Shown in pieces: positions 17,684 through 33,669 of a stretch of DNA of 52,095 nucleotides. The DNA comes from a virus: positions 1 through 52,095 of IMG/VR virus record IMGVR_UViG_3300000405_000005; one strand, written 5' to 3'. How positions within the stretch are numbered: the first letter of the stretch is position 1; each line of letters starts with the position of its first letter. A program made the position numbers and the translations under genes. The notes below the pieces were generated by a model. That model worked only from the letters and a program-made list of their open reading frames with translations. It searched no databases and was not told where the DNA came from.

Positions 17684-17696
17684 CTAACACTGTTAG
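17684..17696. promoter_or_regulatory. 13-bp palindrome, site 1
   Basis: CTAACACTGTTAG, central base C. It lies directly upstream of the -35 box of the first early promoter, where a bound protein could activate or block transcription. Confidence 0.8.
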
Positions 17697-17707
17697 TGCG
17701 ATTTTCC

Positions 17708-17737
17708 TTGCAATACGGGAAAAAATATGGTTATATT
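17708..17737 (+). promoter_or_regulatory. Sigma70-like promoter of the early block
   Basis: TTGCAA (17708-17713) and TATATT (17732-17737) are spaced by 18 bases, about 75 bases upstream of the first early gene. Palindrome site 1 ends 12 bases before the -35 box. Confidence 0.6.
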
Positions 17738-17812
17738 AATCATCGAAACGGACTAGCCGCTTCGAGCCACTGCCTCGCTGGATAGCAAGGCACATCTTAA
17801 GGACTCTTCTCT

Positions 17813-18358
17813 ATGACAAACACGACAGTAGTTGACGGCGTGGACATTAACGTTGCTGACGTAACACTAAACGTTATTCTTGCCGATATGGTCGAAGCGA
17901 CTAGCAAGGCATACGGAGCGCATATCCGCATCGCCGCTAAGTTCAACCACCTCATGAACTTTGCGTGGTTCGACATAGCACCAAACGAGAAGAGCGAAGC
18001 CAACAAAACGCTCCGAGGCTATAAGGCCGCGCTCTATGCCGCGCTCAAGTCGGCTGGCCATACCAACCCTAGTGTTCCTTTCAAGCGCATTTGCGACTAT
18101 GGCCGCAACCTTGCTAATGGCTTGGCACCAAGTGGCAAAACTACTCTTGACGGCCAGCCTGTAGAAGCCGCTTCGGATGCGGACGGTGCGGCTCCCGCTC
18201 CCCGCTCCGCCATGCTTCGCAATGTAGAAGAACTTACTGCGCTCTGGAAGTTCAACGATAAACAGGACGGCCTGCCTGCTAAGGTTGCCCTTGCTCAAAA
18301 GCACATTGAGGCGGCTCTCAAAGCCCTAGGGCTGGACGTTGCAAATATCGCCAAGTGA
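17813..18358 (+). CDS. First early protein, 181 aa, unknown
   Basis: The protein begins MTNTTVVDGVDINVADVTLN and is Ala/Lys/Asn-rich and mostly helical (ADMVEATSKAYGAHIRIAAK, LRGYKAALYAALKSAGHTNP, the end KHIEAALKALGLDVANIAK). An AAGGA site precedes the start. It is the promoter-proximal gene of the rightward block and is followed at once by a very long palindrome. Promoter-proximal early genes often encode host-takeover or regulatory proteins; here that is only an inference. No known domain is recognised. Confidence 0.75.
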   Translation: MTNTTVVDGVDINVADVTLNVILADMVEATSKAYGAHIRIAAKFNHLMNFAWFDIAPNEKSEANKTLRGYKAALYAALKSAGHTNPSVPFKRICDYGRNLANGLAPSGKTTLDGQPVEAASDADGAAPAPRSAMLRNVEELTALWKFNDKQDGLPAKVALAQKHIEAALKALGLDVANIAK

Positions 18359-18364
18359 TCAACC

Positions 18365-18389
18365 GGGGGCCTAACATTGTTAGGCCCCC
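18365..18389. terminator. 12+1+12 palindrome after the first early gene, containing palindrome site 2
   Basis: GGGGGCCTAACA, a central T, and TGTTAGGCCCCC form a perfect inverted repeat 6 bases after the stop codon. It can form a stable RNA hairpin but has no U tract, so it may attenuate transcription or protect mRNA. The palindrome core is the same 13-bp sequence found at 12 other sites. Confidence 0.65.
18371..18383. promoter_or_regulatory. 13-bp palindrome, site 2
   Basis: CTAACATTGTTAG, central base T, forming the centre of the 25-bp inverted repeat at 18365-18389. Confidence 0.8.
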
Positions 18390-18410
18390 CTACTTTGAAA
18401 GGTGTAGGAT

Positions 18411-18512
18411 ATGAATGTTTTTAAGTCGGCGTTGCGCATAACGGCCTACCTGCTAGTCGGCGTCGCGCTCTTGCTTGTTTTTGTTGGTTTTTGGGTGATG
18501 ACCCCGGCCTAA
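18411..18512 (+). CDS. 33-aa single-pass membrane protein
   Basis: The frame MNVFKSALRITAYLLVGVAL continues LLVFVGFWVMTPA. Residues about 8-29 form one strong membrane helix after a basic N-terminus, which predicts an N-inside orientation. AAGGTG and AGGAT upstream give ribosome binding. The stop codon lies inside palindrome site 3. Such tiny early membrane proteins can act in superinfection exclusion or host-membrane control, but the function is unknown. Confidence 0.6.
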   Translation: MNVFKSALRITAYLLVGVALLLVFVGFWVMTPA

Positions 18513-18521
18513 CAGTGTTAG
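18509..18521. promoter_or_regulatory. 13-bp palindrome, site 3
   Basis: CTAACAGTGTTAG, central base G. Its second to fourth bases (TAA) are the stop codon of the 33-aa membrane protein gene. Confidence 0.8.
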
Positions 18522-18524
18522 GTC

Positions 18525-18601
18525 CCCGCCGCTTCTCAACCCCATGCACAAGTGCATGGGGTTTTTTTCTGCCCCCGTCAAGCGGTTTTTATGATAGTTC
18601 C
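18525..18601. repeat. 77-bp direct repeat, copy A
   Basis: This segment recurs at 18646-18722 with four mismatches (offset 121 bp). Each copy carries the same terminator hairpin and the shared end CGGTTTTTATGATAGTTCC. Confidence 0.9.
18540..18568 (+). terminator. Rho-independent terminator in repeat A
   Basis: CCCCATGCAC, loop AA, GTGCATGGGG, then seven T. The perfect 10-bp stem and T tract make this a strong terminator of rightward transcription from the first early promoter. Confidence 0.85.
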
Positions 18602-18645
18602 CGAGGTATATGTAGTGGGCGGATGCGGGCGGATGCGTTCTGTTG

Positions 18646-18722
18646 CCCGCCGCTTCTCAACCCCATGCACAAGTGCATGGGACTTTTTTCTGCCCTAGTC
18701 AAGCGGTTTTTATGATAGTTCC
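18646..18722. repeat. 77-bp direct repeat, copy B
   Basis: Near-identical copy of 18525-18601. The four changes fall at the foot of the terminator stem and in the following spacer. Confidence 0.9.
18661..18689 (+). terminator. Terminator in repeat B
   Basis: CCCATGCAC, loop AA, GTGCATGGG, then AC and six T. One base pair is lost at the foot of the stem relative to copy A. Two terminators in series insulate the region to the right. Confidence 0.75.
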
Positions 18723-19104
18723 GGCGGGTGTGCGAGCGGGCAGGCGCGTTATGTTAGAAAGTTAAGTTTGCGAGCGGCGACTGTAAGAAAAAAAACCCTT
18801 TGTTTTCAAGCTTTGTAAGCAATGTTATATTGTAAGGGCATTTTTAGAGAACGATCCCTTTTTGAGAAAGCTCGGCCCTCTGCGCAAGTGCAGTGTGAAA
18901 AATCTCAAAGATCCCCTTATACTTATTTTTTATACTTACATTATAACAATACAATACAACAACGGAAAAACCCAATGTTTTCGGGCGCTTCAGACCGTTT
19001 CTATTGTTAACTGATTTTTTAACATCCGTCTTACAAAGCACGAAATTCCCTTACATCCCTAACTGCCCCCAAACCACCCCCAGTCGCACTACGTCCAGTA
19101 TTGC
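18723..19104. other. AT-rich non-coding region
   Basis: I see no supported gene. The stretch is A/T-rich between about 18780 and 19040 and contains several short ORFs without ribosome-binding sites. Its position after two terminators and before a promoter makes an origin, small RNA or regulatory region possible, but nothing specific is visible. Confidence 0.5.
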
Positions 19105-19139
19105 TTGACATGGACGTGTTTATGCTATACACTTATAAT
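19105..19139 (+). promoter_or_regulatory. Early promoter, type TTGACAT-GACGT
   Basis: A perfect TTGACA (19105-19110) is followed by GACGT and ATGCTATACA, with TATACA at 19126-19131 (15-base spacer) or TACACT at 19128-19133 (17-base spacer). The same layout recurs at 21972. Palindrome site 4 lies downstream, between this promoter and the gene. Confidence 0.75.
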
Positions 19140-19193
19140 AAGTTAAAAAGCAGCCCCCCAACTGCCCCCACTGGATAGTGTGGCACCCAGAAC

Positions 19194-19206
19194 CTAACAA
19201 TGTTAG
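19194..19206. promoter_or_regulatory. 13-bp palindrome, site 4
   Basis: CTAACAATGTTAG, central base A, between the promoter at 19105 and the start at 19246: a classic operator position. Its internal ATG opens a 28-codon frame overlapping the next gene. Confidence 0.85.
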
Positions 19207-19245
19207 CCCAGCAACCAGCAACCACCAACCCCCCGGAGCCACACC

Positions 19246-19842
19246 ATGACCAACAAAACAAACCACACCAATCGAGATATCGTTAATGCAACCGTGGGGC
19301 GGCACTATGCAGACGCGGCGAAGCTATTGGGTATGTCCCCCCGGTCACTATCGCGCCGGTTTTCCGAAATGCCAGAGCAAATGCGGCGTATAGTCCTCGC
19401 CAATAGACCAGCCCGGGCTGCACCCGTCCGCGATGCGCGCAAAGCTACCAAGGATGCCCGCAAAGCTACCAAGTCTAACGCCGCAGCATCCCTGCGCGAC
19501 CGCGACCGAGCCAAGCTGGCAATCGTGCGGGCAATGGTCGAGAGCGGGTGCGACTGGGCTGATATCGCCGCGAAGTTCGTCACTGATACCGTGGAGATTC
19601 GGAATTACGGCAAGAATAATCTCATCAAGCTTAACGAGCAGGGGCGTGTACGCGCAAGCGCCCGGAGCCATACCAGTGTCGGTGGATCAATGTATAACGA
19701 GTGGGGTATGGCACCTATGCAGCCGCCGTGTAGTGGCTCCGCTGACAGACTAGTAACGCTGATCGCGGAAGGGCAGGCGACAGCACGACCCCTCCTCTCT
19801 GCATCCATCGAACCAACCAAGGGAGAAGCCGATGAAGTTTGA
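19246..19842 (+). CDS. HTH-type DNA-binding protein candidate, 198 aa
   Basis: Residues about 10-39 (DIVNATVGRHYADAAKLLGM then SPRSLSRRF) form a helix-turn-helix like Fis-type or homeodomain-like elements. A basic Arg/Ala/Lys region follows (VRDARKATKDARKATKSNAA), then a second possible helical unit (IVRAMVESGCDWADIAAKFV). The gene has its own promoter and operator, as expected of a regulator, and could bind the 13-bp palindrome. Bases 19672-19719 belong to a sequence repeated at 26890-26937. Specific binding is inferred. Confidence 0.65.
   Translation: MTNKTNHTNRDIVNATVGRHYADAAKLLGMSPRSLSRRFSEMPEQMRRIVLANRPARAAPVRDARKATKDARKATKSNAAASLRDRDRAKLAIVRAMVESGCDWADIAAKFVTDTVEIRNYGKNNLIKLNEQGRVRASARSHTSVGGSMYNEWGMAPMQPPCSGSADRLVTLIAEGQATARPLLSASIEPTKGEADEV
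19672..19719. repeat. 48-bp direct repeat, copy 1
   Basis: Matches 26890-26937 at 45 of 48 positions. Here it is inside the HTH-type gene, read in the frame giving MYNEWGMAPM. Confidence 0.9.
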
Positions 19843-20086
19843 CGTCCAACATGATGGAAAAGACTATTTCACTAGGTATTACGCCCAGCTTAGTGGCCTC
19901 ACCGTCATCAGTATAAAACTCGAAAATAACAACGATGGCGGTGATCCATACCCTGTGCTGCTTATGGGTAGGGACGACGGCAACGGCGGTGTGTACGACA
20001 ACACCCTGTTGTGGGTAATCATCCAGCGTGACCCATCTGGCGGCGCTGGATACGCAGCAATACATAAGATTGGAACAGAACAATGA
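19832..20086 (+). CDS. Hypothetical early protein, 84 aa
   Basis: A small protein (MKFDVQHDGKDYFTRYYAQL ... DPYPVLLMGRDDGNGG ... LLWVIIQRDPSGGAGY) that looks beta-rich. It overlaps the HTH-type gene by 11 bases and the next gene by 4, so translation is probably coupled. No domain recognised. Confidence 0.6.
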   Translation: MKFDVQHDGKDYFTRYYAQLSGLTVISIKLENNNDGGDPYPVLLMGRDDGNGGVYDNTLLWVIIQRDPSGGAGYAAIHKIGTEQ

Positions 20087-20271
20087 ACCCCGACGATAAA
20101 GCAGACCTTCGTGACCTGCGCGACAGCACAGAGCAACCGGAAGATAAGAAGCTGCTGCGCAAGGCTATCAACCACATCCATATGCTCGAAGCTAAACTCT
20201 TCACGGTGCGAGTCTATGCCAAGTCGATCCTGACTGAAGCATACAGCAAATCCAGCAACGAGGGAGACTAA
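20083..20271 (+). CDS. Hypothetical helical protein, 62 aa
   Basis: Acidic N-terminus (MNPDDKADLRDLRDSTEQPE) followed by helices (LLRKAINHIHMLEAKLF). It starts in an ATGA overlap with the previous gene; its stop falls within palindrome site 5. Function unknown. Confidence 0.6.
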   Translation: MNPDDKADLRDLRDSTEQPEDKKLLRKAINHIHMLEAKLFTVRVYAKSILTEAYSKSSNEGD

Positions 20272-20280
20272 CAATGTTAG
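20268..20280. promoter_or_regulatory. 13-bp palindrome, site 5, over a start codon
   Basis: CTAACAATGTTAG. The central ATG (20274-20276) is the start codon of the next gene, just after the ribosome-binding sequence GAGGGAG. The TAA of the previous gene (20269-20271) lies within it too. Confidence 0.85.
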
Positions 20281-20498
20281 ATCAGGACGCAGACCGGGAG
20301 GCTATCCGGCTGCTCAAGCAGGTGGATAGCCTGCGCAAGGAGTTAACGGCACTCGAACCGCAGCTAAACGAGGCCGCACTTTCATACGGTAGGCGGCGCG
20401 GGATGTTCCTATTCCGAGAGTTTCACCTACGTAACAGTTTGGGTGGCAGGTCCCTCAAGCACAAAGACCAAATCGACATAAAGGAACCCACCACATGA
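20274..20498 (+). CDS. Hypothetical protein, 74 aa, starting in palindrome site 5
   Basis: The frame MLDQDADREAIRLLKQVDSL then RKELTALEPQLNEAAL is a coiled-coil-prone helix, followed by a basic part (GRRRGMFLFREFHLRNSLGG). The start codon is the centre of palindrome site 5, so a protein bound there would sit on the translation start region at DNA level. It overlaps the next gene by 4 bases. Function unknown. Confidence 0.6.
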   Translation: MLDQDADREAIRLLKQVDSLRKELTALEPQLNEAALSYGRRRGMFLFREFHLRNSLGGRSLKHKDQIDIKEPTT

Positions 20499-20749
20499 GC
20501 AGCGCAGAAAACGGGCCGGCGATGACTGCGGATCACGTGAAGGCTGCACGGCTGTCTGCCAGACACCACGCGGACGAAGCGGCAGAGGCCGAATGGTCGC
20601 TGAATAACTTTTTGCTTAGAGGCGAAGACCGCGCGGACGCCGAAGCTTTATCCAAGAGCGGCGTAATCATGGCGCGCATCCTTGCCGAAGTCGCCACCTA
20701 CATTGAGGCGCAGATCGAAGCCATCGCCACAGAGGGGCACACATCATGA
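20495..20749 (+). CDS. Hypothetical protein, 84 aa
   Basis: A helical protein rich in Ala, Glu and His (MTADHVKAARLSARHHADEA, AEWSLNNFLLRGEDRADAEA, VIMARILAEVATYIEAQIEA). ATGA overlaps link it to both neighbours. No known domain. Confidence 0.6.
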   Translation: MSSAENGPAMTADHVKAARLSARHHADEAAEAEWSLNNFLLRGEDRADAEALSKSGVIMARILAEVATYIEAQIEAIATEGHTS

Positions 20750-20880
20750 TGATTGGAACAGGCGCGCCGGCGTTTCCGGTCACTTGGGACAGCGCAGCAA
20801 GAGCCGAAGAAAAGGTGGAGGCCGCAAATTGCCATTCCTCGACACTCACCCGGACCCGCATCCAAGCAGAAGACAAGTGA
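20746..20880 (+). CDS. Hypothetical small protein, 44 aa
   Basis: ATG 20746 overlaps the previous stop (ATGA) and opens MMIGTGAPAFPVTWDSAARA then EEKVEAANCHSS, ending AEDK at TGA 20880. The coupling pattern supports it; the sequence offers no functional clue. Confidence 0.45.
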   Translation: MMIGTGAPAFPVTWDSAARAEEKVEAANCHSSTLTRTRIQAEDK

Positions 20881-20916
20881 AGAAGGCAGCATTCAGATGA
20901 TGGAAGGAAAAGTATC

Positions 20917-21075
20917 ATGAAACACGACCGCAGCTACTACCGCACACTGACCCACAACGAGCTTTGTGAGGAAGTAAAGTACAGCACTAACACAAACTGG
21001 CAGGAGCTTGCTATCGCATTGGCCGAGCGCCTCGATACCATTGGCTTTGGGCTGGGTATCGCGCGCAGCGAGTAA
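20917..21075 (+). CDS. Hypothetical small protein, 52 aa
   Basis: A good ribosome-binding site (GGAAGGAAAAG) precedes ATG 20917. The protein MKHDRSYYRTLTHNELCEEV continues KYSTNTNWQELAIALAERL and ends GLGIARSE. The helical pattern resembles small phage accessory proteins; function unknown. Confidence 0.6.
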   Translation: MKHDRSYYRTLTHNELCEEVKYSTNTNWQELAIALAERLDTIGFGLGIARSE

Positions 21076-21131
21076 GAAAAAACGGATAAATACTATGGCT
21101 ACGGACGTAGCCGGAAAGAAGGAGCAAGAAT

Positions 21132-21944
21132 ATGTTCGGAGCAAATCTAAGTGAAGTAGGAGTACTGCGTACCTATGCCGATGCAGCCCGTTGGGAGGCA
21201 CTCGTTAAACCTGTCCGGGGCCGCGCTGTAGAGTGCAAGCCACTTGGTGCAAGGAGCAAAAGCTATGCCAACATTCGCAAGGATGTGGCTACTGGTGACA
21301 TCATCATCCGCCTCTATAGTACCGACATCGTGCGCTACAAACCGGACGGCACCCTTATCGTGAATCAAGGTGGGTATGAGAGCCAGACCACGCGCCAGTA
21401 CCTCAACGCTGTCCTGCCCATATGGTTTAGTTCGCACCAAGGCAAGACGGTCACGTGTAGAAGTCGAGAAGGGAGTCATCACTTGCTGCACTCAAGCGAT
21501 GACAACATCTTCAAGTACACAACTAACAATGTTAGTGGGTTCTCAGATACGTACTACTTCGTTAACCCTAAGCCATGCGTCATCCACACCAAGAACCGCG
21601 CTAAGTCAAAGGAAGTTCGCTCGCGCTACGCGCCGTTCATCAATTACGTGAGTCGCATACGTAAGCTGCTAGGTAGCGACATCGAGGTCGCTATCGATAG
21701 GAGCAAAGGCAGCACCTTCCTCCATACGAGCGATATACTCGCCTTAGCCGCAACGAACGACCCAGAAAGCCACCACGCTGTCATGACACAACTCGCTGGT
21801 CAGTGGTGTAGATGGGGTAACAAACCCAATGTGCTGAACCGGTTCAAGGATATTATGTTCCGCGCCCACCGTGACGATATATTTGACGAGACCACACTGC
21901 CTCGCGGCGAGCTAAAGTACGATAGGTTCAAAGGGCTTTTCTAA
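21132..21944 (+). CDS. Conserved hypothetical phage protein, 270 aa
   Basis: The N-terminal part (DAARWEALVKPVRGRAVECK then PLGARSKSYANIRKD) and the segment IIRLYSTDIVRYKPDGTLIV followed by NQGGYESQTTRQYLNAVLP match a pattern I recall from many phages without a known function. The C-terminal third holds TSDILALAATNDPESHHAVM. There is no membrane segment or catalytic motif I can name. Palindrome site 6 lies inside the gene (21523-21535), encoding TNNVSG. It ends the small-gene group before the promoter at 21972. Confidence 0.7.
   Translation: MFGANLSEVGVLRTYADAARWEALVKPVRGRAVECKPLGARSKSYANIRKDVATGDIIIRLYSTDIVRYKPDGTLIVNQGGYESQTTRQYLNAVLPIWFSSHQGKTVTCRSREGSHHLLHSSDDNIFKYTTNNVSGFSDTYYFVNPKPCVIHTKNRAKSKEVRSRYAPFINYVSRIRKLLGSDIEVAIDRSKGSTFLHTSDILALAATNDPESHHAVMTQLAGQWCRWGNKPNVLNRFKDIMFRAHRDDIFDETTLPRGELKYDRFKGLF
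21523..21535. promoter_or_regulatory. 13-bp palindrome, site 6, inside a gene
   Basis: CTAACAATGTTAG, extended to a 15-bp palindrome by flanking A and T. It lies within the coding region of the 270-aa protein, where it could act as a roadblock site. Confidence 0.8.
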
Positions 21945-21971
21945 TCTGGTCGGATCACCGACTGGAATGTG

Positions 21972-22006
21972 TTGACATAGACGTAACAATGCTATACAAG
22001 TATAAT
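21972..22006 (+). promoter_or_regulatory. Early promoter, type TTGACAT-GACGT
   Basis: TTGACA (21972-21977), GACGT and ATGCTATACA as at 19105, with TATACA at 21993-21998. It is followed by palindrome site 7 and the AAA+ gene, repeating the promoter-palindrome-gene layout of 19105-19246. Confidence 0.75.
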
Positions 22007-22060
22007 TATAAATATGAGTCGGTGCAATGGCTTATATTTATAATCACGCCGCAGCCCAAA

Positions 22061-22073
22061 CTAACAGTGTTAG
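22061..22073. promoter_or_regulatory. 13-bp palindrome, site 7
   Basis: CTAACAGTGTTAG, central base G, between the promoter at 21972 and the AAA+ start at 22113. Confidence 0.85.
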
Positions 22074-22112
22074 CTGGTACTAAGCTAACCGCAAGAAGGA
22101 GCAACGACTACC

Positions 22113-23204
22113 ATGACCACGATCAACTTCGGTTCAACAGTGAGCCTCAAGCAAGCCGCTACTCTCATCATGACTAACCCCAAGGTTCGCTTCCTTGTTC
22201 GCGGCGAACCCGGCATCGGCAAGTCCACGATGCTCTCCATGATCGCTAAGGTCAAAGCCTCTACTCACCTATCCTCTTACATCGACGTGCCAAACATGGA
22301 CTTGGGCGACATCGCCATGCCTGTGATTGATCATGAGACGCGCACTACCCGGTACTATCCTAATGCGCGGTTCCGATTGCACGAGGGCAAGCCCGTCATC
22401 ATCATGCTCGATGAGTTCACCAAGGGTGCAGAGCCTATCAAGAATATGCTGCACCCGCTGCTGGAGGTTACGGCCCCACGCCTTGGTGACTTGTTCATTG
22501 ACGCGGGTGTCGAGGATGACGCTGCCCGCTCTATCATCTTCATGACGGGCAACCTTCTGACCGACGCAGTAGGTGATAACATGAAGGCGCATACTCGCAA
22601 CCGTATTGTCGAGATTGTTGTCGCTAAGCCTGATGATACGCAGTGGCTTGAGTGGGCAGTCAATAACGGCATCGACCCTGTTATCATGGCATGGGTACGC
22701 CAATTCCCGCAAGCCCTAGCTAGCTATACAGAGGCGGGCCAAGACGATAATCCCTACATCTTCAACCCACGCAAGCAACAGACAGCTTATGTGACGCCGC
22801 GCTCACTCGCTATCGCATCTAACATTGTTAGGAGCCGCGAGGCCAACGGTGCCGAGGCTACCATCGCTGCGCTCAAGGGTGCCATCGGTGAGTCCGCTGC
22901 CCGTGATATGCAAGCGTTCATTGACTACCAAGACCAGCTTCCAACATGGGATAGCATCATCGCTGGACCCAAGTCGGCGCAAGTGCCTACGTCTGCTGGC
23001 GCATCCGCAGTGCTTGTGTTTGGTGCCATCCAGAAGGTCGATAAACAGTCGCTAACCCCGTTCATGCAGTACATGGAGCGGTTCGACAGTGAGTGGCAAG
23101 CTTGCTTCGCCATCAACCTGTGCGCCAACGCAACCAAGCAGCCTATGGCATTTACTAACCAAGCGTTCGCTGACTGGCTGGAGCAGAACGAAGACCTGCT
23201 GTGA
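22113..23204 (+). CDS. MoxR-type AAA+ ATPase, 363 aa
   Basis: Walker A GEPGIGKST lies at about residues 31-39 and Walker B VIIMLDEF at about 95-102, followed by a sensor-like IIFMTGNLL. A MoxR-like pattern is seen in RNRIVEIVVAKPDD and in the C-terminal lid region. MoxR ATPases act as chaperones with VWA-domain partners; such a partner is encoded at 23450-24673. The pair may remodel a host or phage protein complex early in infection. AAGGAG precedes the start. Palindrome site 8 lies inside the gene. Confidence 0.85.
   Translation: MTTINFGSTVSLKQAATLIMTNPKVRFLVRGEPGIGKSTMLSMIAKVKASTHLSSYIDVPNMDLGDIAMPVIDHETRTTRYYPNARFRLHEGKPVIIMLDEFTKGAEPIKNMLHPLLEVTAPRLGDLFIDAGVEDDAARSIIFMTGNLLTDAVGDNMKAHTRNRIVEIVVAKPDDTQWLEWAVNNGIDPVIMAWVRQFPQALASYTEAGQDDNPYIFNPRKQQTAYVTPRSLAIASNIVRSREANGAEATIAALKGAIGESAARDMQAFIDYQDQLPTWDSIIAGPKSAQVPTSAGASAVLVFGAIQKVDKQSLTPFMQYMERFDSEWQACFAINLCANATKQPMAFTNQAFADWLEQNEDLL
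22819..22831. promoter_or_regulatory. 13-bp palindrome, site 8, inside a gene
   Basis: CTAACATTGTTAG, central base T, within the AAA+ coding region (encoding SNIVRS). Confidence 0.8.
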
Positions 23205-23223
23205 GCGGCAGATCGGGGACATC

Positions 23224-23460
23224 ATGAACGGTACGATACATAGGTGGAGGCGGCAGAACTTCATGCCGCCTCCATCCCTGACGGGTAAGAATATAGAACT
23301 GATAGAGATGAAGCGGTCACTCAGAGACCCATTGGTTTGGGTGGTGACACTTAATCTTAATGGTTGGCCCCACGACATCAAGATGTGGGCCAAGGATGAG
23401 TTAGATATATTCAAGCAGGTCAAAGAACTACAAAGAGGAGTCCCTAACAATGTTAGTTGA
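23224..23460 (+). CDS. Hypothetical protein, 78 aa
   Basis: I use ATG 23224, with GGGGA 8 bases upstream; it reads MNGTIHRWRRQNFMPPPSLT and then LIEMKRSLRDPLVWVVTLNL, ending KELQRGVPNNVS. The last 11 bases overlap the start of the VWA gene and carry palindrome site 9. It lies between the ATPase and its probable partner and may belong to the same complex. No known domain. Confidence 0.6.
   Translation: MNGTIHRWRRQNFMPPPSLTGKNIELIEMKRSLRDPLVWVVTLNLNGWPHDIKMWAKDELDIFKQVKELQRGVPNNVS
23444..23456. promoter_or_regulatory. 13-bp palindrome, site 9, over a start codon
   Basis: CTAACAATGTTAG. The central ATG (23450-23452) starts the metallopeptidase/VWA gene; the ribosome-binding sequence AGAGGAG lies just before the palindrome. 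Confidence 0.85.
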
Positions 23461-24673
23461 ACAAAAAGATAAGGTCGAACGCAAGCTTAAGAAGGTCAAG
23501 ATCGACCTCATGCGTAACCCTAAGTTCGCACTGTGGTCTGGCATCATGATGGTGGGCAAGACGGAACTATCAGACGATATTCCTACCGCTTGCACCAACG
23601 GACGCGACGAACTCTACGGACGCGAGTTCGTCAAAGGCCTGACCGATAAAGAGTTGGCCTTCGTTATCCTCCACGAGAATATGCACAAGGCACTGCGTCA
23701 CCTGACTATCTGGCGCAAGCTGTGGGATAAGGACAAACGCCTCGCCAACATGGCTTGTGACTACGTTATTAACCTGATGATTGTTGAGTCTGATCCAGCC
23801 GAGCAATGGTCTGCGTTTCCACGAGATGCGCAGGGGGCGCGTATCGGCTTCTTCGACACTCGCTTCAAGGGTATGAACGCCAAGCAAGTGTTCGACATAC
23901 TCCAGCAGGAGGATGAAGATGAGGATGAGGGTGGCGGGGGTTCCAGTGGTGATGGCTTTGATGACCATGATTGGGAGGGTGCCGAGGCGCTCAATGCTGA
24001 GGAGAAGAAGGAGCTTGAGCGCGAGATCGACCAAGCTATCCGCCAAGGTGTGATGGCCGAGCAGAAGGTTGTTGGTAATCAGAAGGGTAATCGGTTCCGC
24101 GAGTTAGGTGACTTGCTCGCGCCGCAGATTGATTGGCGTGAGGTATTGCGCGAGTTCGTCAAGTCCATCTGCAATTCTAAGGATACGTCATCGTGGCGTA
24201 GGGTTAACCGCAGGTTCCTTGGTACTGATATCTATATGCCCACCATGATTGGTGAGCGTGTTGGTTCACTGGCTATCGGCGTAGATACATCAGGCTCAAT
24301 CAGCGGTGCAGAGATCAATCGGTTTCTGTCCGAGGTTAAGTCTATCGCGGAGGACGTTCGCCCTGAAAAGATCGACCTTATCTATTGGGACGCAAGCGTT
24401 GCCGCTCACGAAGTATATGAAGAGCATGACATGGCTAACATTGTTAGCTCTACCAAGCCTAAGGGTGGCGGCGGCACTGACCCCCGCGCCATGATGCACT
24501 TCCTCAAGAAAGAACGCATCGAGCCGGAGTGCATCATCATGCTCACCGATGGTGAGATTGGTGACTGGGGTAACGAGTGGGGTGCGCCCATCATGTGGGT
24601 GGTTTGTAACTCATATCGCGGCAACTCTATCACTGCCCCGGTGGGCAAGACGGTTCACATCAAAGATAATTGA
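23450..24673 (+). CDS. Metallopeptidase-like / VWA-domain protein (DUF2201 type), 407 aa
   Basis: The N-terminal domain contains FVILHENMHKALRHL, an HExxH-like zinc site written HENMH (H75, E76, H79). An acidic linker follows (QQEDEDEDEGGGGSSGDGFD). The C-terminal VWA-like domain has the metal site IGVDTSGSISG (D279-S283) and later IIMLTDGEIGDWG. This order matches DUF2201 proteins, which pair with MoxR-type ATPases such as the one at 22113. VWA domains bind protein ligands through a metal ion. Whether it cleaves protein is unknown. The start codon is inside palindrome site 9; site 10 is internal. Confidence 0.8.
   Translation: MLVEQKDKVERKLKKVKIDLMRNPKFALWSGIMMVGKTELSDDIPTACTNGRDELYGREFVKGLTDKELAFVILHENMHKALRHLTIWRKLWDKDKRLANMACDYVINLMIVESDPAEQWSAFPRDAQGARIGFFDTRFKGMNAKQVFDILQQEDEDEDEGGGGSSGDGFDDHDWEGAEALNAEEKKELEREIDQAIRQGVMAEQKVVGNQKGNRFRELGDLLAPQIDWREVLREFVKSICNSKDTSSWRRVNRRFLGTDIYMPTMIGERVGSLAIGVDTSGSISGAEINRFLSEVKSIAEDVRPEKIDLIYWDASVAAHEVYEEHDMANIVSSTKPKGGGGTDPRAMMHFLKKERIEPECIIMLTDGEIGDWGNEWGAPIMWVVCNSYRGNSITAPVGKTVHIKDN
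24435..24447. promoter_or_regulatory. 13-bp palindrome, site 10, inside a gene
   Basis: CTAACATTGTTAG, extended to 15 bp by flanking G and C; it lies in the VWA-domain coding region (encoding ANIVSS). Confidence 0.8.
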
Positions 24674-24686
24674 GGGGAGTATTCCA

Positions 24687-24938
24687 ATGAGCAAAGCACT
24701 AATCCGCGTAGGGTATAACGAATACGTAATGGACATCAGTGATGCTGTTACGGTTATGGAAATCATACTCAAGGCCGAGAACTACAGGGCCAATACCAAC
24801 TACAACACCGCGCCTAGCACCACCACTTACTATATCTGGGGCCAAGAGGAGAAGCAGGCGGATAATATCTCCGTGCAACTACTGCCTGAAACGCGATACC
24901 GAGTGGCTAAGTTAGCGGGTAGGCCAGAAGATAAGTAA
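24687..24938 (+). CDS. Hypothetical protein, 83 aa
   Basis: I use ATG 24687, preceded by GAGGGGAG; it gives MSKALIRVGYNEYVMDISDA then VTVMEIILKAENY and IWGQEEKQADNISVQLLPET. The region upstream in the same frame belongs to the VWA gene. Probably a small globular alpha/beta protein of the MoxR-VWA cluster. Function unknown. Confidence 0.65.
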   Translation: MSKALIRVGYNEYVMDISDAVTVMEIILKAENYRANTNYNTAPSTTTYYIWGQEEKQADNISVQLLPETRYRVAKLAGRPEDK

Positions 24939-24991
24939 ATATCGGATAGCAGACCGGACGGTCTACATCCACTAAACAAGGAGCAAACACC

Positions 24992-25846
24992 ATGAGTATT
25001 ACATCATCCGCCGTGCTGGTGGAAATGAACATCAGCGTATGGACTGCTAACAAGCTGGATAAGGGAGCCACCGAGGGTGTGCTTGCCTCTAACGGAGCAA
25101 CATCAGGCGATGCAGCGCAGGTCCGCAAGAACCTGATGGCTGGCACATCAGCCCGTAAGGAGGTTGCCGACTACGCCGCTGGCTGTCGCCTCTGGCACAA
25201 TACACGCACACTACCGTGGGCGGACAAAGGTGCGCGGCTTCTGCCCACCAGCCTGTTCCTCGCCTACAAAGCAGAGGCCAACATCCGGCGAGACACGTTC
25301 AACCAGATGGTAGGCACCTTTATTAGCAACTACCCCGCACTGGTGCAGACCGCTAGTAACTACATGGGCACTCTGTTCAATCAGGATGACTACCTAAGTA
25401 GTGACGCGGTACGTGAGAAGTTTGGCTACCGCCTTGTGTTCTCACCTGTGCCAGACAGCGGTGACTTCCGTCTAGACCTGCCGAAGCAGGACATAATTGA
25501 GATGGAGCAGAGCTATCAATTAGCATTCAATGATCGGTTAGCCGAGGCTATGCGCACTCCGTGGGATCAGCTTCACAAGATGCTTGGCGCTATGTCCACC
25601 AAGCTGGCAGAGGGTGACGAGGATACCAAGAAGCGGTGGCACGATACGTTCGTTACCAATGCGCAGGAGATGTGCGCGATGTTGACACACCTCAACGTAG
25701 CTAAAGACCCCCAGCTTGAGAATGCACGTAGGCAGCTAGAGGTAGCAATGATTGGTATCGACATCGAAGACATCAAGGATGATGAACTCACCCGGGCCAG
25801 CCTTAAGGACAAGCTCGATAATATCCTCAAGGGATATGACTGGTGA
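24992..25846 (+). CDS. MoxR-cluster protein, DUF3150-like, 284 aa
   Basis: The N-terminus (LVEMNISVWTANKLDKGATE) and the layout of long helices resemble DUF3150 proteins that I associate with phage MoxR-VWA loci; the family call is tentative. Segments include DYAAGCRLWHNTRTLPWADK, GARLLPTSLFLAYKAEANIR and a C-terminal helical part (LENARRQLEVAMIGIDIEDI). An AAGGAG site precedes it, and a GTGA overlap leads to the next gene. It may be a substrate or adaptor of the ATPase. Confidence 0.6.
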   Translation: MSITSSAVLVEMNISVWTANKLDKGATEGVLASNGATSGDAAQVRKNLMAGTSARKEVADYAAGCRLWHNTRTLPWADKGARLLPTSLFLAYKAEANIRRDTFNQMVGTFISNYPALVQTASNYMGTLFNQDDYLSSDAVREKFGYRLVFSPVPDSGDFRLDLPKQDIIEMEQSYQLAFNDRLAEAMRTPWDQLHKMLGAMSTKLAEGDEDTKKRWHDTFVTNAQEMCAMLTHLNVAKDPQLENARRQLEVAMIGIDIEDIKDDELTRASLKDKLDNILKGYDW

Positions 25847-26031
25847 GCCTATGGGTAGTCACCAAGACGTATGATGTAGCTAACTGCAAAACTAACATTG
25901 TTAGTGTTGAGCCTTACGAAGAGTTCATCCTCAAATACGGATGGAACTTGAACCTTGGCGACATCATTGAAGCTATCGACGCGCTAGACGCTTGGAAGAA
26001 GACAAGGGAGATATACAATGAACGTTATTAA
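25843..26031 (+). CDS. Hypothetical protein, 62 aa, GTG start
   Basis: GTG 25843 overlaps the previous stop (GTGA) and begins a protein reading SLWVVTKTYDVANCKTNIVS then VEPYEEFILKYGWNLNLGDI. The end overlaps the next start by 14 bases. Palindrome site 11 lies inside it, encoding KTNIVS. Function unknown. Confidence 0.6.
   Translation: MSLWVVTKTYDVANCKTNIVSVEPYEEFILKYGWNLNLGDIIEAIDALDAWKKTREIYNERY
25892..25904. promoter_or_regulatory. 13-bp palindrome, site 11, inside a gene
   Basis: CTAACATTGTTAG, extended to 15 bp by flanking A and T, within the 62-aa gene. Confidence 0.8.
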
Positions 26032-26938
26032 TAACGACTACATACAGCTCGATATGCCTAATATTCTGTTCGAGCGGCGGAAGATAGACCAAGATACCAC
26101 CGTATTAATTACCGCAGATAACACTACGGTCGCTCCGTTTATACTCCCGCTAATACTGCGTCTTGCGCGAGCACGGCCCCAATGGAATTTCGTGGCAGTC
26201 AGACGCTATATGGTTAGCGACTCGATGTACAACGTAAATAGGTTCGCAGTTAGCGTGGGTAACACCCATCTTGGCGAAATATGGAAATCTACCGGTAACA
26301 ATGGCAGTGAGGTGGGTATTAACAATGACCGCATGTCAACCAGTAGGATGCGCGGCAATGCCAGTAATACGAAAGACTTGAAGAAGGCGTTCAAGCTAGT
26401 GACCCAGAACTTTCATGTTCTGACTGTGGCCGAGGATATTAGTAATACGCTTAAAGTGGCCGCAACCACTGTGTCCAGCTTGTGTAGTGAAAGCCATTGG
26501 GCGTTCCATAGTAAATATAATGTCTTGAAACATTTCTTGGAAACTTACACCATAAACAATTGGGATCATGTCAAGCAAATGGCTATCGAAGCAGGAGTAA
26601 ATGCTACTTCGCTCGATGGGATGCTAGAAGCATATAAGTCGCGGCTAGCCACAGAAGCGCTTAATAAGGCTATGGACGACAACTCCGGTACTACTGTGCT
26701 GATACGCGACGAGAAGTATGTTCTAGTTACTGGTGGAGTCACCAGCATTCTTGATACTGACCAACTACCTCTGCATATTAAACGGTCTGTAGGTATTCTC
26801 AAGATGGTTGAGAACAGGACATGTGTAGAGGGCCACGGCGTTCGTTTGGAAAAAGATAAGTTTTTTGTATCGTCTAAAGAAGGAGTAACACCAGTGTCGG
26901 TGGATCGGTGTATAACGAGTGGGGTATTGCACCTATGA
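26018..26938 (+). CDS. Hypothetical protein, 306 aa
   Basis: The protein starts MNVINNDYIQLDMPNILFER and contains NTTVAPFILPLILRLARARP, SDSMYNVNRFAVSVGNTHLG and several helices in the C-terminal half. I recognise no family. The last 16 codons fall in the 48-bp repeat and end at TGA 26936-26938, which overlaps the ATG of the next gene. It is the last large gene of the MoxR-VWA group. AGGGAG lies upstream of the start. Confidence 0.65.
   Translation: MNVINNDYIQLDMPNILFERRKIDQDTTVLITADNTTVAPFILPLILRLARARPQWNFVAVRRYMVSDSMYNVNRFAVSVGNTHLGEIWKSTGNNGSEVGINNDRMSTSRMRGNASNTKDLKKAFKLVTQNFHVLTVAEDISNTLKVAATTVSSLCSESHWAFHSKYNVLKHFLETYTINNWDHVKQMAIEAGVNATSLDGMLEAYKSRLATEALNKAMDDNSGTTVLIRDEKYVLVTGGVTSILDTDQLPLHIKRSVGILKMVENRTCVEGHGVRLEKDKFFVSSKEGVTPVSVDRCITSGVLHL
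26890..26937. repeat. 48-bp direct repeat, copy 2
   Basis: Matches 19672-19719 at 45 of 48 bases. Here the frame used gives SVDRCITSGVLHL, different from copy 1. It ends exactly with the ATG that starts the 60-aa gene. AAGGAG lies just upstream. Confidence 0.9.
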
Positions 26939-27117
26939 CCACTCAAGTAGACCTAACAATGTTAGCTAAGCAACCAACCGAAATGAGCAAGGCTTCTCCT
27001 GCTACGGCTGCGGAACTCGTCGCCTGCTACAGGTCGGGCCAAATTGACGAAGGCACGATGGTGCAGATTTGCTACGACCGGCCAGACGTGCGGGCTATTT
27101 TTGAGGGAACAACATGA
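26935..27117 (+). CDS. Hypothetical protein, 60 aa
   Basis: ATG 26935 overlaps the upstream stop (ATGA), the rule in this block. The protein is MTTQVDLTMLAKQPTEMSKA then SPATAAELVACYRSGQIDEG, ending DVRAIFEGTT. Other possible starts are GTG 26908, in the repeat, and ATG 26959, in the centre of palindrome site 12. The C-terminal part is helical. Function unknown. Confidence 0.6.
   Translation: MTTQVDLTMLAKQPTEMSKASPATAAELVACYRSGQIDEGTMVQICYDRPDVRAIFEGTT
26953..26965. promoter_or_regulatory. 13-bp palindrome, site 12
   Basis: CTAACAATGTTAG, 18 bases after ATG 26935. Its central ATG (26959) is in frame and could be an alternative start, as at sites 5 and 9. Confidence 0.8.
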
Positions 27118-27284
27118 CCGAAGAACCCAAACGCTATCGGGGCCAGCGTGGCCCTAACAAGGTGAAGAAGGAAAGCATGAAGTTGGTGGCCATACGGCTA
27201 CCGCAGTATGTGGTAGACCACTTTAATGGTTCATCTACTGCGATGCGCATTGCGCTGATTGAGTTCACCAAACCTAAGACCTAA
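27114..27284 (+). CDS. Ribbon-helix-helix-like regulator candidate, 56 aa
   Basis: ATG 27114 overlaps the previous stop (ATGA). After a basic arm (EEPKRYRGQRGPNKVKKE) the protein reads MKLVAIRLPQYVVDHFNGSS then TAMRIALIEFTKPKT, the strand-helix-helix pattern of CopG/Arc/BrnA-type DNA-binding proteins. These dimerise and bind short inverted repeats. The stop codon TAA lies inside palindrome site 13, so it may bind the 13-bp palindrome and control its own operon. The fold is likely; the target is a hypothesis. Confidence 0.65.
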   Translation: MTEEPKRYRGQRGPNKVKKESMKLVAIRLPQYVVDHFNGSSTAMRIALIEFTKPKT

Positions 27285-27293
27285 CATTGTTAG
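27281..27293. promoter_or_regulatory. 13-bp palindrome, site 13
   Basis: CTAACATTGTTAG, extended by flanking C and G. It contains the stop codon of the 56-aa gene and lies 16 bases upstream of the -35 box at 27310. It is the last exact copy. Confidence 0.85.
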
Positions 27294-27356: not shown

Positions 27357-27668
27357 ATGGCAGCAACACCAGAAAAGAAAGTTAAGGATAAGGTAGTGTC
27401 TGCCCTCAAAGCAGAGGGCGTCTATTATTTTTTCCCCGCAACGCATGGTTACGGACGTAGTGGCGTCCCTGATATTATAGCGTGTGTAAAAGGTAAGTTC
27501 CTTGCCATTGAGTGCAAGGCGGGTGGTGGCAAGCTGACCGTCCTACAAGCCCGCGAGATTGAACGCATCCGCCATTGCGGCGGTGTAGCTGTCGTAGTGA
27601 ACGAGGAGAACTGGGATATGCTCCGCCAGCTATTGAGGGAACTATCATCGGGGGAGATGCCGCGATGA
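27357..27668 (+). CDS. VRR-NUC nuclease, 103 aa
   Basis: VRR-NUC domains are PD-(D/E)XK-type nucleases often found with phage replication and recombination genes. Visible features are AEGVYYFFPATHGYGRSGVP followed by DIIACVKGKFLAIECKAGGG, which holds the acidic D, E and K of the active site (PD...ECK), then KLTVLQAREIERIRHCGGVA. I use ATG 27357 with GAGGAG upstream; an earlier in-frame ATG lies inside the promoter. It overlaps the polymerase by 4 bases and probably processes branched or nicked DNA. Confidence 0.82.
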   Translation: MAATPEKKVKDKVVSALKAEGVYYFFPATHGYGRSGVPDIIACVKGKFLAIECKAGGGKLTVLQAREIERIRHCGGVAVVVNEENWDMLRQLLRELSSGEMPR

Positions 27669-29482
27669 ACATCCTCACAATCGACTTCGAGACTTACTAC
27701 GACCCTGCGTATTCGCTGTCTAAGGTGACCACCGAAGAGTATATCCGCGACCCTCAGTTTGAGGTTATCGGCGTAGCTGTAAAGGTAGGTAACGGCGACG
27801 CAGTATGGTTCAGTGGGACCAGAGCACAAACTAAGCGGTGGCTCGATCAATTCCACTGGGATGACGCCATTGCGCTGGCTCACAACGCTATGTTCGACAT
27901 GGCTATCCTTAACTGGCACTTTGACATCCGCCCCAAACACATCGCTGATACGCTAGCTATGGCTCGTGCGCTACATGGCAATGAGACGGGGGTTAGCTTA
28001 AAGTCTATGGCCGCGTTCTATAATATTGGCGAGAAGGGTACAGAAGTACTCAACGCGCTGGGCAAACGGCGCATCGACTTCACAACTTACGACCTTACCC
28101 GCTATGGGGAGTATTGTCGTAACGACTGCGACCTAACGCTTAAGCTGTTCGAGCGCATGGCACCTAAGTTCCCCGCGCGTGAGCATCGGTTAGTGGACTT
28201 GACGGTTCGTATGTTTAGCGAACCAGTACTACGGTTAGATAAGAACCTCCTCGAGGACCATATTATCCGCGTACAAGCCGCCAAGGCGGAGCTTATGAGT
28301 AAGCTCAACTACGACAGGGCGGAGCTTATGAGTAACCCCAAGCTAGCCGCGCTACTTAAGTTTCATGGGGCAGATGTGCCGATGAAGCTTAGCCCTGCAA
28401 CGGGTAAGGAGACCTATGCTTTTGCTAGAACCGACGAAGCGTTCAAGGCGCTGTTGGAGCATGATGACCCAATGGTGCAAGCTATTGTGGCAGCGCGTAT
28501 GGGCGTTAAGTCTACGTTGGAAGAGACAAGGACGCAGCGGTTCATCAACATCGCCCATCGCGGCACACTGCCAATCCCCCTGCGCTACTACGCTGCTCAC
28601 ACTGGGCGTTGGGGTGGTGATGACAAGGTGAATATGCAGAACCTACCCCGCAAGTCGCTACTCAAGAAGGCTATACTGGCACCGGAAGGTTATATGTTTA
28701 TTGACTGTGATAGCAGTCAGATTGAGGCGCGGACCTTAGCGTGGCTGGCTGGGCAGGATGACTTAGTGGATGCCTTCACTCGAGGCGAGGACGTTTATAA
28801 GATCATGGCTTCCGCTATTTATAACAAGCCAGCAGATCAAATCACGGACCTCGAACGTTTCGTGGGTAAGACCACCATCCTTGGCGCTGGCTATGGCATG
28901 GGTCCCGCTAAGTTTAAGGTGCAGTTAAAGACATTTGGCGTCGTTATGACGCTGAGTCAGTGTGAGTACATCATTAGGGTATATCGTGAGACATACTCAA
29001 AGATTCCCCTACTTTGGCAGCAAGGGCAAAGAACTATCGAAGCCCTGCTTGACGGCGTAACTTCGCCGTTAGGTAGGGAGGGTGTAGTCTTAGTTAACGG
29101 CTTTGGTATACGTCTACCCAACGGGCTGTACCTAAAGTACCCTAACCTACGTAAAGTAACGGGCGACAAAGGTAAGCCAGAGTTCATCTACAACCAGAAG
29201 CGGGGCCGCTCCGCCATCCCCAACCGTATATATGGAGGGAAGCTGATCGAGAACGTGTGTCAGGCATTGGCCCGTATTATTATCGGTGAGCAGATGCTTA
29301 TGATTTCTCGTTCCCAGAAGGTAGTGATGACCGTGCATGATGCCGTGGGTATCGTTACACCTACGGAACAAGCATCAGATGCACGAGAGTTCGTTGAGCA
29401 GTGTATGCGTATCCAACCTAAGTGGGCCACTGGCCTACCACTAAACTGTGAGAGTAAGATGGGGGCAAGCTATGGTGGGTAA
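27665..29482 (+). CDS. Family A DNA polymerase, 605 aa
   Basis: The replicative polymerase. The N-terminal 3'-5' exonuclease begins ILTIDFETYYDP (DEDD-type Asp/Glu) and continues with LAHNAMFDMAILNW and CRNDCDLTL. Polymerase motif A reads FIDCDSSQIEARTLAWL near residue 350; the finger helix has RFVGKTTILGAGYGMGPAKF; motif C is VVMTVHDAVG near residue 557. The start at 27665 gives an ATGA overlap and begins directly at the exonuclease strand. No 5' nuclease domain is present, as in most phage enzymes. Confidence 0.93.
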   Translation: MNILTIDFETYYDPAYSLSKVTTEEYIRDPQFEVIGVAVKVGNGDAVWFSGTRAQTKRWLDQFHWDDAIALAHNAMFDMAILNWHFDIRPKHIADTLAMARALHGNETGVSLKSMAAFYNIGEKGTEVLNALGKRRIDFTTYDLTRYGEYCRNDCDLTLKLFERMAPKFPAREHRLVDLTVRMFSEPVLRLDKNLLEDHIIRVQAAKAELMSKLNYDRAELMSNPKLAALLKFHGADVPMKLSPATGKETYAFARTDEAFKALLEHDDPMVQAIVAARMGVKSTLEETRTQRFINIAHRGTLPIPLRYYAAHTGRWGGDDKVNMQNLPRKSLLKKAILAPEGYMFIDCDSSQIEARTLAWLAGQDDLVDAFTRGEDVYKIMASAIYNKPADQITDLERFVGKTTILGAGYGMGPAKFKVQLKTFGVVMTLSQCEYIIRVYRETYSKIPLLWQQGQRTIEALLDGVTSPLGREGVVLVNGFGIRLPNGLYLKYPNLRKVTGDKGKPEFIYNQKRGRSAIPNRIYGGKLIENVCQALARIIIGEQMLMISRSQKVVMTVHDAVGIVTPTEQASDAREFVEQCMRIQPKWATGLPLNCESKMGASYGG

Positions 29483-32107: not shown

Positions 32108-33669
32108 TGCAAAGTATTGACGATAAGGTGCTACTCGTCAGGACTACTGAACCCAATATAATTACCGACAACATCAAGAAGAGCGCGGTATATAAGCAGG
32201 ATGGGGATACGTACGAAGTAGCAGTAAGATGGGGCCTCAAGGAAACTAAGGCGCTTATAAAGCTTGGTGTAGCTGACCCACCATCCCCAATCAAAAGGCA
32301 TTATAAGTGGCCCGGTAAGCACAAGCCGTTTGACCACCAGAAAGACACCGCTTCCTTTCTCACCCTCAACGATAAGGCGTTCTGCTTCAACGAGCAGGGT
32401 ACAGGTAAGACCGCTTCGGTTATCTGGGCTGCGGACTACCTGATTAAGATAGGCGAGATTAAACGCATACTCGTGCTGTGTCCGCTGTCCATCATGAAGG
32501 CCGCATGGCAGCAGGATTTGTTCACCTTTGCAATGCACCGCTCTTGCTCTATCGCACATGGTGTAGCCAAGCAGCGTGAGAAGATCATCAAGGCTGGCAA
32601 CGAGTTCGTCATTCTTAACTTTGATGGGTTGGCTGTTGTTGAGGAGGCTGTCCTCAACGGTGGTTTTGATTTAATCGTAGTGGATGAGGCTAGCGCCTAT
32701 AAGAACGCGCAGACTAACCGCTGGAAGGTGCTTAACCGTATCATCAACACAACTAAGCCGCGTCTTTGGATGCTTACTGGTACACCAGCAGCACAAAGTC
32801 CTCTCGATGCTTATGGGTTAGCTAAGTTAGTTAACCCCGATAACTGCCCTAAATACTACGGCTCGTTCCGAGATCAGGTTATGTACAAGGCAACGCAGTT
32901 TAAGTGGCTGGCGAAGCCACAGGCGGAAAGTATCGTGCACAGGGTGTTGCAGCCAGCCATCCGGTTTGAGAGGAAGGACTGTCTCGACCTACCTGACGTT
33001 ACGTATATGGAACGTGAAGCACCGCTAACCAAGATGCAGATGTCCTACTACAAGATGCTTAAGGAAGAGATGCTCTTCGAGGCAGCGGGCGAAGAGGTCA
33101 GTGCGGTCAACGCCGCCACCAAGATTAATAAGCTACTCCAGATTAGTGGGGGCGCGGTCTATACGGATACTGGTGAGGTAATCGAGTTTGATGTTAGCAA
33201 CCGTTTAACGGCTGTCTTAGAAGTCATAGATGAATCTAGCCATAAAGTGTTAGTCTTCGTGCCCTTCACACATACCATCCGACTACTACGTGAGAGGTTA
33301 GAGAAGGAAGGTATCTCGTGTGATGTCATCAACGGCAAGGTACCAGTGAACCGCCGTAGTGAGATCGTGCAGGAATTCCAAACTCGCAAAGACCCACATG
33401 TGCTTATCATTCAGCCACAGGCCGCATCGCACGGGTTGACGCTGACAGCAGCTAACACTGTTATATGGTACGCACCTGTGACGAGCGTGGAAACCTACCT
33501 ACAAGCGAACGCCCGTATCAACCGCCCGGGGCAGAAGAACAACATGACCGTTGTCCATATTCAAGGTAGCGACGTAGAGGCTAAGCTCTACCACATGCTG
33601 CAACATAACATCACAAACCACGAGAAAATTATCGACCTCTATAGGCAAATCGCTACAGATATCCCTTGA
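32107..33669 (+). CDS. SNF2-family helicase / ATPase, 520 aa
   Basis: Superfamily 2 motor with Walker A NEQGTGKTA near residue 95, motif Ia ILVLCPLSIMKAAWQ, motif II LIVVDEASAYKN near 190, motif III LTGTPAAQS near 223, and C-terminal helicase motifs VLVFVPFTHTIRLL, LTLTAANTVIWYAP and QANARINRPGQKNNMTV. It matches small phage SNF2 proteins that move on dsDNA, in replication fork remodelling or recombination. The stop overlaps the -35 box of the next promoter. Confidence 0.9.
   Translation: MQSIDDKVLLVRTTEPNIITDNIKKSAVYKQDGDTYEVAVRWGLKETKALIKLGVADPPSPIKRHYKWPGKHKPFDHQKDTASFLTLNDKAFCFNEQGTGKTASVIWAADYLIKIGEIKRILVLCPLSIMKAAWQQDLFTFAMHRSCSIAHGVAKQREKIIKAGNEFVILNFDGLAVVEEAVLNGGFDLIVVDEASAYKNAQTNRWKVLNRIINTTKPRLWMLTGTPAAQSPLDAYGLAKLVNPDNCPKYYGSFRDQVMYKATQFKWLAKPQAESIVHRVLQPAIRFERKDCLDLPDVTYMEREAPLTKMQMSYYKMLKEEMLFEAAGEEVSAVNAATKINKLLQISGGAVYTDTGEVIEFDVSNRLTAVLEVIDESSHKVLVFVPFTHTIRLLRERLEKEGISCDVINGKVPVNRRSEIVQEFQTRKDPHVLIIQPQAASHGLTLTAANTVIWYAPVTSVETYLQANARINRPGQKNNMTVVHIQGSDVEAKLYHMLQHNITNHEKIIDLYRQIATDIP

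Follow-up and report, generated by a model that had tools for sequence, protein, structure and literature searches.

The window analysed here, a stretch of 52,095 nt taken as a whole, is IMG/VR record IMGVR_UViG_3300000405_000005, a 52-kb contig of an uncultured virus of bacteria. Its plus-strand early block begins with a domain of approximately 10 kb, which ends just ahead of the DNA polymerase gene and in which a series of small genes is followed by those for a MoxR/AAA+ ATPase, a VWA/DUF2201 protein, a DUF3150-like protein, a 306-aa protein and a 56-aa basic protein, in this order (table 1). Dispersed through the domain are 13 exact copies of a 13-bp palindrome, CTAACANTGTTAG (CTAACA-N-TGTTAG), all within 17,684-27,293. 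The first-pass annotation of this DNA had listed these copies, had judged that chance predicts far less than one, and had placed them at start and stop codons, inside genes and beside promoter-like sequences. A search of all 52,095 bases recovers the 13 copies at the same coordinates and in these settings, with none elsewhere. Approximately 0.01 copies are expected for a dyad with these arms (corrected Poisson P ~1e-31), and a chance origin of the array is thus rejected. The reversed pattern, used as a control, has 0 matches in the window. With 13 exact copies, 1 copy at one mismatch, 2 at two mismatches (5866 and 30127) and background from three mismatches, the spectrum is sharply bimodal. 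The single one-mismatch copy, which the first-pass annotation had also picked out, is probably without function.

The 13 sites are spaced more regularly than random (coefficient of variation 0.46, P = 0.004), and 54% of them touch intergenic DNA versus 12% of random points (P = 0.0008); 38% lie deep inside genes. Start codons are covered at 20274, 23450 and 26959 (ATG in each case), CTAACAATG being the site as built into the VWA gene start, and a TAA stop codon is covered at 27284. The sites at 20268 and 27281 each overlap the end of one gene and run into the following gene's start or promoter region. A nucleotide search of the region against phage records returned no match, and a literature search for the exact half-sites returned chance matches only.

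Table 1. Palindromic sites and relevant genes; positions are those of the window unless a contig is named (ORF, open reading frame).
Feature	Position	Strand	Remarks
Site 1, CTAACACTGTTAG	17684-17696		Intergenic; ~11 bp upstream of the -35 of promoter-like TTGCAA-18-TATATT (17708-17737)
Site 2, CTAACATTGTTAG	18371-18383		Right after the stop of ORF 17813-18358; extended locally to a longer inverted repeat, GGGGGC...GCCCCC
Site 3, CTAACAGTGTTAG	18509-18521		Upstream of an intrinsic-terminator-like hairpin (18538-18563)
Site 4, CTAACAATGTTAG	19194-19206		Intergenic; ~40 bp before ORF 19246
Site 5, CTAACAATGTTAG	20268-20280		Spans the stop of ORF 20083-20271 and the ATG of ORF 20274; position shared by three close relatives
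Site 6, CTAACAATGTTAG	21523-21535		Within ORF 21132-21944; several relatives have a site in the same gene
Site 7, CTAACAGTGTTAG	22061-22073		~40 bp ahead of the AAA+ gene
Site 8, CTAACATTGTTAG	22819-22831		Within the AAA+ gene, codon ~236; relatives as low as 58% identity have it at codon 227-236
Site 9, CTAACAATGTTAG	23444-23456		Includes the VWA gene ATG; many relatives have their own palindrome variant here
Site 10, CTAACATTGTTAG	24435-24447		Within the VWA gene, codons ~329-333 (A-N-I-V-S); exact 13-mer in 23 distinct loci
Site 11, CTAACATTGTTAG	25892-25904		Within small ORF 25843-26031, codon 17, likewise in five close relatives
Site 12, CTAACAATGTTAG	26953-26965		Includes the ATG of small ORF 26959-27117
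Site 13, CTAACATTGTTAG	27281-27293		Covers the RHH stop codon (TAA); TATAAT follows ~25 bp downstream; within an extended inverted repeat, like site 2; place kept in all close relatives
One-mismatch copy, CTAACACTGTTAT	33452-33464		In the helicase gene
MoxR/AAA+-type ATPase (phrog_1297)	22113-23204	+	Member of the conserved early module
VWA/DUF2201 putative metallopeptidase protein (phrog_1314)	23450-24673	+	Member of the conserved early module
284-aa protein	24992-25846	+	Homologue of a Synechococcus phage MinM2 gene annotated DUF3150
56-aa ribbon-helix-helix-like (RHH) protein	27114-27284	+	Basic RGQRGPNK tail; candidate reader; last gene of the domain
Family A DNA polymerase	27575-29482	+	First large gene past the palindrome domain; exact sites absent from here onward
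76-aa HTH_3 protein	35086-35316	+	Considered as reader, disfavoured
Other small putative DNA-binding genes (phages without RHH)	L253 13894-14247; L255 14094-14441; L258 6915-7073; L265 13518-13925; G024 53745-54101		

Relatives were retrieved from IMG/VR through two proteins of the domain, 41 loci through the DUF3150-like protein and 80 through the VWA protein, the palindrome being used in neither search. Most are uncultured contigs, and since many loci share descent or are fragments, association statistics drawn from them overstate independence. A significantly over-represented palindrome was found in 66 of the 79 VWA-homology loci scanned, some of which are overlapping copies of contigs already seen. 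Relatives with CTAACA-1 sites (the last figure giving the spacer), at 58-90% protein identity, carry them at homologous places, also within genes; the places shared down to 58% protein identity comprise codon 227-236 of the AAA+ gene, the VWA start and codon ~323-343 of the VWA gene. Twenty-three distinct loci have the identical 13-mer in their VWA gene despite differing flanking codons, while phages with other palindromes have similar residues at this site, encoded by other codons. The first-pass annotation had made a control role depend on relatives with similar proteins having the intragenic sites; such relatives keep them, at homologous places and in frozen codons, and phages using another palindrome lack the 13-mer there. 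In two loci (L221 and L237) the palindrome stands ~12-15 nt upstream in the same VWA segment and the protein sequence is altered. The spelling at the VWA start varies from phage to phage (CTAACAATGTTAG, CTAACAAATGTTAG, CTAACAAAATGTTAG, TTAACAGATGTTAA, TAAACACCTGTTTA, ATTAAACATGTTTAAT and others), and the types found there are CTAACA-1, -2 or -3, TTAACA-2, TAAACA-2, TAAACA-1 and ATTAAA-4. The positions are kept in relatives even though the spelling has often changed; the palindromes are therefore real sites, presumably bound by a protein, and probably a phage switch by which early gene activity is closed down or coordinated.

The pattern of substitution bears on the nature of these sites. Among 288 exact sites in 23 genomes of the CTAACA-1 class, 11 substitutions fall at the five inner arm positions versus 56 at the outermost base, and there are no interior G-U variants. 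The central base is A or T in 269 of the 288, with a ratio of 155 A to 114 T on the coding strand and so no strong orientation. Near-invariant inner arms together with the complete lack of interior G-U variants indicate sites acting at the DNA level and not as an RNA hairpin. Additionally, every site listed for the complete or long relatives falls within the early domain. The palindromes are DNA sites kept by selection, symmetric, unoriented and confined to the early domain, and their spelling co-diverges across phages. Other repeats are found in the same set of contigs: in the VWA-bearing locus L251 two other palindromes, TTCTTA-2-TAAGAA and CTTAG-0-CTAAG, are enriched as a pair, and G022, G023 and G024 carry a separate second repeat family, GCCTGT-1-ACAGGC (6 copies), beside TAAC-4-GTTA.

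Arrays of this kind can also be found in two cultured phages. Rhizobium phage RHph_TM3_14A has 28 sites of the TTACC-N6-GGTAA type and Planktothrix phage Pag-Yong1 has 25 of the GGTTCAG-N-CTGAACC type, both arrays extending over most of the genome. Gene boundaries are favoured in all three independent systems (the window, RHph_TM3_14A and Pag-Yong1), strongly in the latter two, where 36% and 20% of the sites, respectively, lie deep in genes. Both phages share the AAA+ and VWA genes, and no arrays were found in phages that share only the virion module (DSL-LC04, HTVC027P and CRP-902) or only the replication module (KPP25 and Rollin). As a sufficient cause the AAA+/VWA pair is nevertheless rejected, given that the N4-like LUZ7 and a Variovorax contig carry it without an array. 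On the latter (Variovorax sp. WDL1, L283 8861-12236) the full trio of AAA+ (MoxR-like), DUF3150-like and VWA/DUF2201 genes, at 22113-25846 in the window, occurs with palindromes absent; thus, the module exists outside these phages. The records of Pag-Yong1, of a further Planktothrix phage, Pra-JY27, and of Synechococcus phage MinM2 (OL906435.1, OQ594354.1 and PP438419.1) are all exactly 65,014 bases long, and the G+C content of Pag-Yong1 is 69%. The three may represent a single phage whose host was a heterotrophic contaminant and not the stated cyanobacteria.

A candidate for the protein that reads the palindromes is encoded by the last gene of the domain. The RHH-like protein has a basic, AT-hook-like tail and a sequence that fits the RHH pattern, a strand plus two helices. 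Seventy-three loci retain both flanking genes once obvious duplicates are removed; the RHH gene occurs in 36 of the 39 that belong to the TAACA class and in 9 of the remaining 34 (Fisher 5e-9, without correction for phylogeny). An informative locus is G007, whose core genes mostly share 62-84% identity with those of the window and whose RHH tail is near-identical, but whose RHH strand reads VAVSIRL versus KLVAIRL in the window. The VAVSIRL strand is found also in G025 and L250, and a similar one in G028 and G029; the sites of G007 are TAAC-N4-GTTA, as in G025, G028 and G029, and even the site at the RHH stop codon is changed. In G019 and L024, two of the three TAACA-class exceptions without RHH, a different protein is encoded, CopG-like and with an AT-hook tail; the L024 gene for it starts 19 bp after a palindrome. 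In phages of the TTAACA-2 or ATTAAA-4 type the RHH slot is occupied by helix-turn-helix (HTH)-like genes. It is as if regulators had been swapped in place between the 306-aa-family gene and the polymerase. More generally, phages free of RHH have other small putative DNA-binding genes in this interval (HTH, sigma-70 region 4-like and winged-helix-like; table 1). Judged from these comparisons of sequence, the RHH protein is somewhat favoured as the reader of the palindromes, and should be taken as a supported lead rather than a result. Of the HTH and RHH candidates named by the first-pass annotation, it is the one that gained. The HTH_3 protein is an unlikely reader because its recognition helix stays near-invariant across palindrome classes while the palindrome changes, and it is present also where no palindrome is detected.

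For a symmetric, unoriented site repeated through one unit, at boundaries and inside genes, the simplest role is in transcription through that unit. We propose, at roughly even chances, that the palindromes are bound by a phage-encoded dimeric protein, likeliest the RHH protein, in a stoperator-like silencing of the early block. The binding sites would span the opening 10 kb of the early transcription unit. Encoded by the unit's last gene, the RHH protein would accumulate after the early genes have been read once, and when abundant enough would fill the sites throughout the early block and turn it down, both by roadblocking the elongating RNA polymerase and by occluding the few promoter-adjacent sites, while the downstream replication genes would stay on. 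With the candidate reader gene at the end of the unit, delayed negative feedback would follow. The outcome would be a stoperator system that is symmetric and works regardless of orientation, in a phage lacking any recognisable integrase. That early silencing is the effect of the predicted binding seems to us slightly the better supposition. In agreement with the first-pass annotation, which had seen no integrase, the Phage_integrase domain is absent from 28 related records (serine integrases were not searched, and the window is possibly an incomplete genome). When 84,980 genomes were scanned for a prophage state, the 284-aa protein had only three homologues, and none was clearly part of a prophage.

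Several observations weigh against this proposal. The monomer predicted by AlphaFold for the RHH protein has two helices with no strand assigned, at a moderate predicted local distance difference test score of 74, and Pfam support for RHH is weak, with the G009 homologue matching BrnA_antitoxin at E = 0.0002 and the window protein giving no match. The Fisher test on the association ignores shared ancestry. Presence of RHH and of palindromes is also discordant in some loci: L216, L219 and G017 have RHH and no detectable palindrome, G018 has RHH and only a different, four-copy palindrome, and G024 and G026 have palindromes with no RHH homologue and with other putative DNA-binding genes nearby. 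Furthermore, the window-type and G009-type RHH proteins differ in their strand yet go with the same palindrome, and the strand type TSLRLP is found with spacers 1, 2 and 3. Finally, few sites only are near promoter-like sequences, and matches to such sequences in the palindrome region are no commoner than in shuffles.

The last point tells equally on an alternative in which the sites form a dispersed regulon of ordinary operators, each acting on initiation at a nearby weak early promoter and with no roadblock. The preference for gene boundaries and the promoter-like elements just downstream of sites 1 and 13 are what such a regulon would have, but with over a third of the window sites deep in genes and conserved there, we consider it unlikely. 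In another scenario the palindromes are loading or organising sites, for a KorB/ParB-like clamp or for centromere-like or nucleoid-like compaction of the early region, and act at a distance. The KorB operators of plasmid RK2 resemble the present sites in number and length. They are likewise dispersed and palindromic, are often far from promoters, act up to 1.5 kb away and serve a global repressor (PMC11790492), and the even spacing of our sites would also fit. However, KorB belongs to the ParB family, and a reader of this type is rejected given that 21 related records have no ParB_N match and one sub-threshold HTH_ParB match only (ParA was not searched). With Phage_integrase absent as well, loading sites are decidedly unlikely.

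Were the sites bound by a host protein, either exploited or titrated by the phage, the spellings might differ among phages as a reflection of differing hosts. The AACA-N2-TGTT half-site looks similar to the LexA boxes of Gram-positive bacteria. Nevertheless, spelling and spacer differ also between related phages (G007 and the window), the spelling co-varies with a phage gene and the sites are restricted to phage early genes, all of which makes a host reader improbable. A role in replication, recombination, packaging or genome entry is suggested by the proximity of the replication module and the restriction to one end of the early block; the even spread over 10 kb at gene boundaries, and the near genome-wide arrays of RHph_TM3_14A and Pag-Yong1, render it very improbable. 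We reject the view that the palindromes form RNA hairpins, as terminators or processing sites of the early transcript. The sequence is self-complementary and sites 2 and 13 belong to extended inverted repeats, but it is the sequence that is frozen rather than the pairing, strand orientation is lacking and a T-tract is absent after most sites.

The nearest precedent for the array is the 17-bp palindrome of Cluster O mycobacteriophages such as Corndog (TGTTCGG-N3-CCGAACA; 34 copies, about a third in genes). Reported in 2015, these palindromes are denser in one operon; integrase is absent, no lysogens were recovered, and neither function nor reader was identified (PMC4351075). Invariant arms, a variable A/T-rich centre, lack of orientation, an intergenic location with one third in genes and the missing integrase are common to both systems. 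The phage groups are unrelated, however, and the palindromes differ in sequence; moreover, the five close genomes of Cluster O share a single spelling, whereas the group of the window has many spellings and spacers along with a co-varying candidate reader. The L5-type stoperators of Cluster A (L5 and TipsytheTRex), to which the first-pass annotation had likened the array, are 13-bp sites, more than 20 of them spread through the genome, that lie between genes and at promoters and are proposed to stop elongation (PMC9283540). The likeness stands for the many short dispersed sites, intergenic and at promoters (13 in 9.6 kb in the window). It does not extend to site architecture: stoperators are asymmetric, orientation-dependent and monomer-bound, and the window array, a perfect dyad, unoriented and also inside genes, is therefore not of that family. 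Stoperators also belong to temperate phages with an immunity repressor, whereas the related records gave no Phage_integrase match (28 searched) and no ParB_N match (21 searched). The array may thus work like stoperators while standing outside their family. As with our palindrome, the 15-bp SPbeta repeated element was found by sequence, its reader becoming known later; that reader, MrpR, is a prophage repressor with a tyrosine-recombinase fold and its sites are at promoters (PMC10516654). Start-associated sequences of Cluster K (named in PMC4351075) recall the window sites that coincide with start codons, but most window sites are not tied to translation starts.

Arrays of the Cluster O kind are now known from two cultured phages and from an environmental phage group, unrelated to Cluster O, in which dozens of loci carry them. 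What is new is this breadth, the diversified spelling and spacer, the replacement of spelling in place and a candidate reader open to test. Natural variation in spelling and spacer, together with one natural exchange, points to a specific 56-aa gene, and the open question of Cluster O-type arrays is reduced to a single small protein and a single 13-bp oligonucleotide. Should symmetric roadblocks indeed bring about silencing, they would be a way to shut off early genes in phages without lysogeny. A bolder extension, which we hold to be quite unlikely, is that this large, apparently virulent group uses a fast-diversifying palindrome code, with interchangeable small regulators (RHH, CopG-like and HTH) that would silence the early genes of any genome of the same spelling; this would amount to an immunity-like, self-recognising exclusion without lysogeny.

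Outside the early domain, the minus-strand late genes match a podovirus-like virion module common to DSL-LC04, Pelagibacter phage HTVC027P, Roseobacter phage CRP-902 and Pag-Yong1, and the replication module is nearest to those of RHph_TM3_14A, KPP25 and Rollin. The large terminase subunit (832 aa; 14187-16685, minus strand) has an insertion of ~320 aa with LAGLIDADG/homing-endonuclease matches (PF14528 and PF05204). This insertion is an intein, located in the ATPase motif between MPPRH and TKSE; it ends in HN, followed by T, and apparently begins with R rather than C or S. A late protein of 2048 aa (38511-44657, minus strand) gives a weak match to LPD39 (large polyvalent protein) and has long homologues in Rollin and RHph_TM3_14A.

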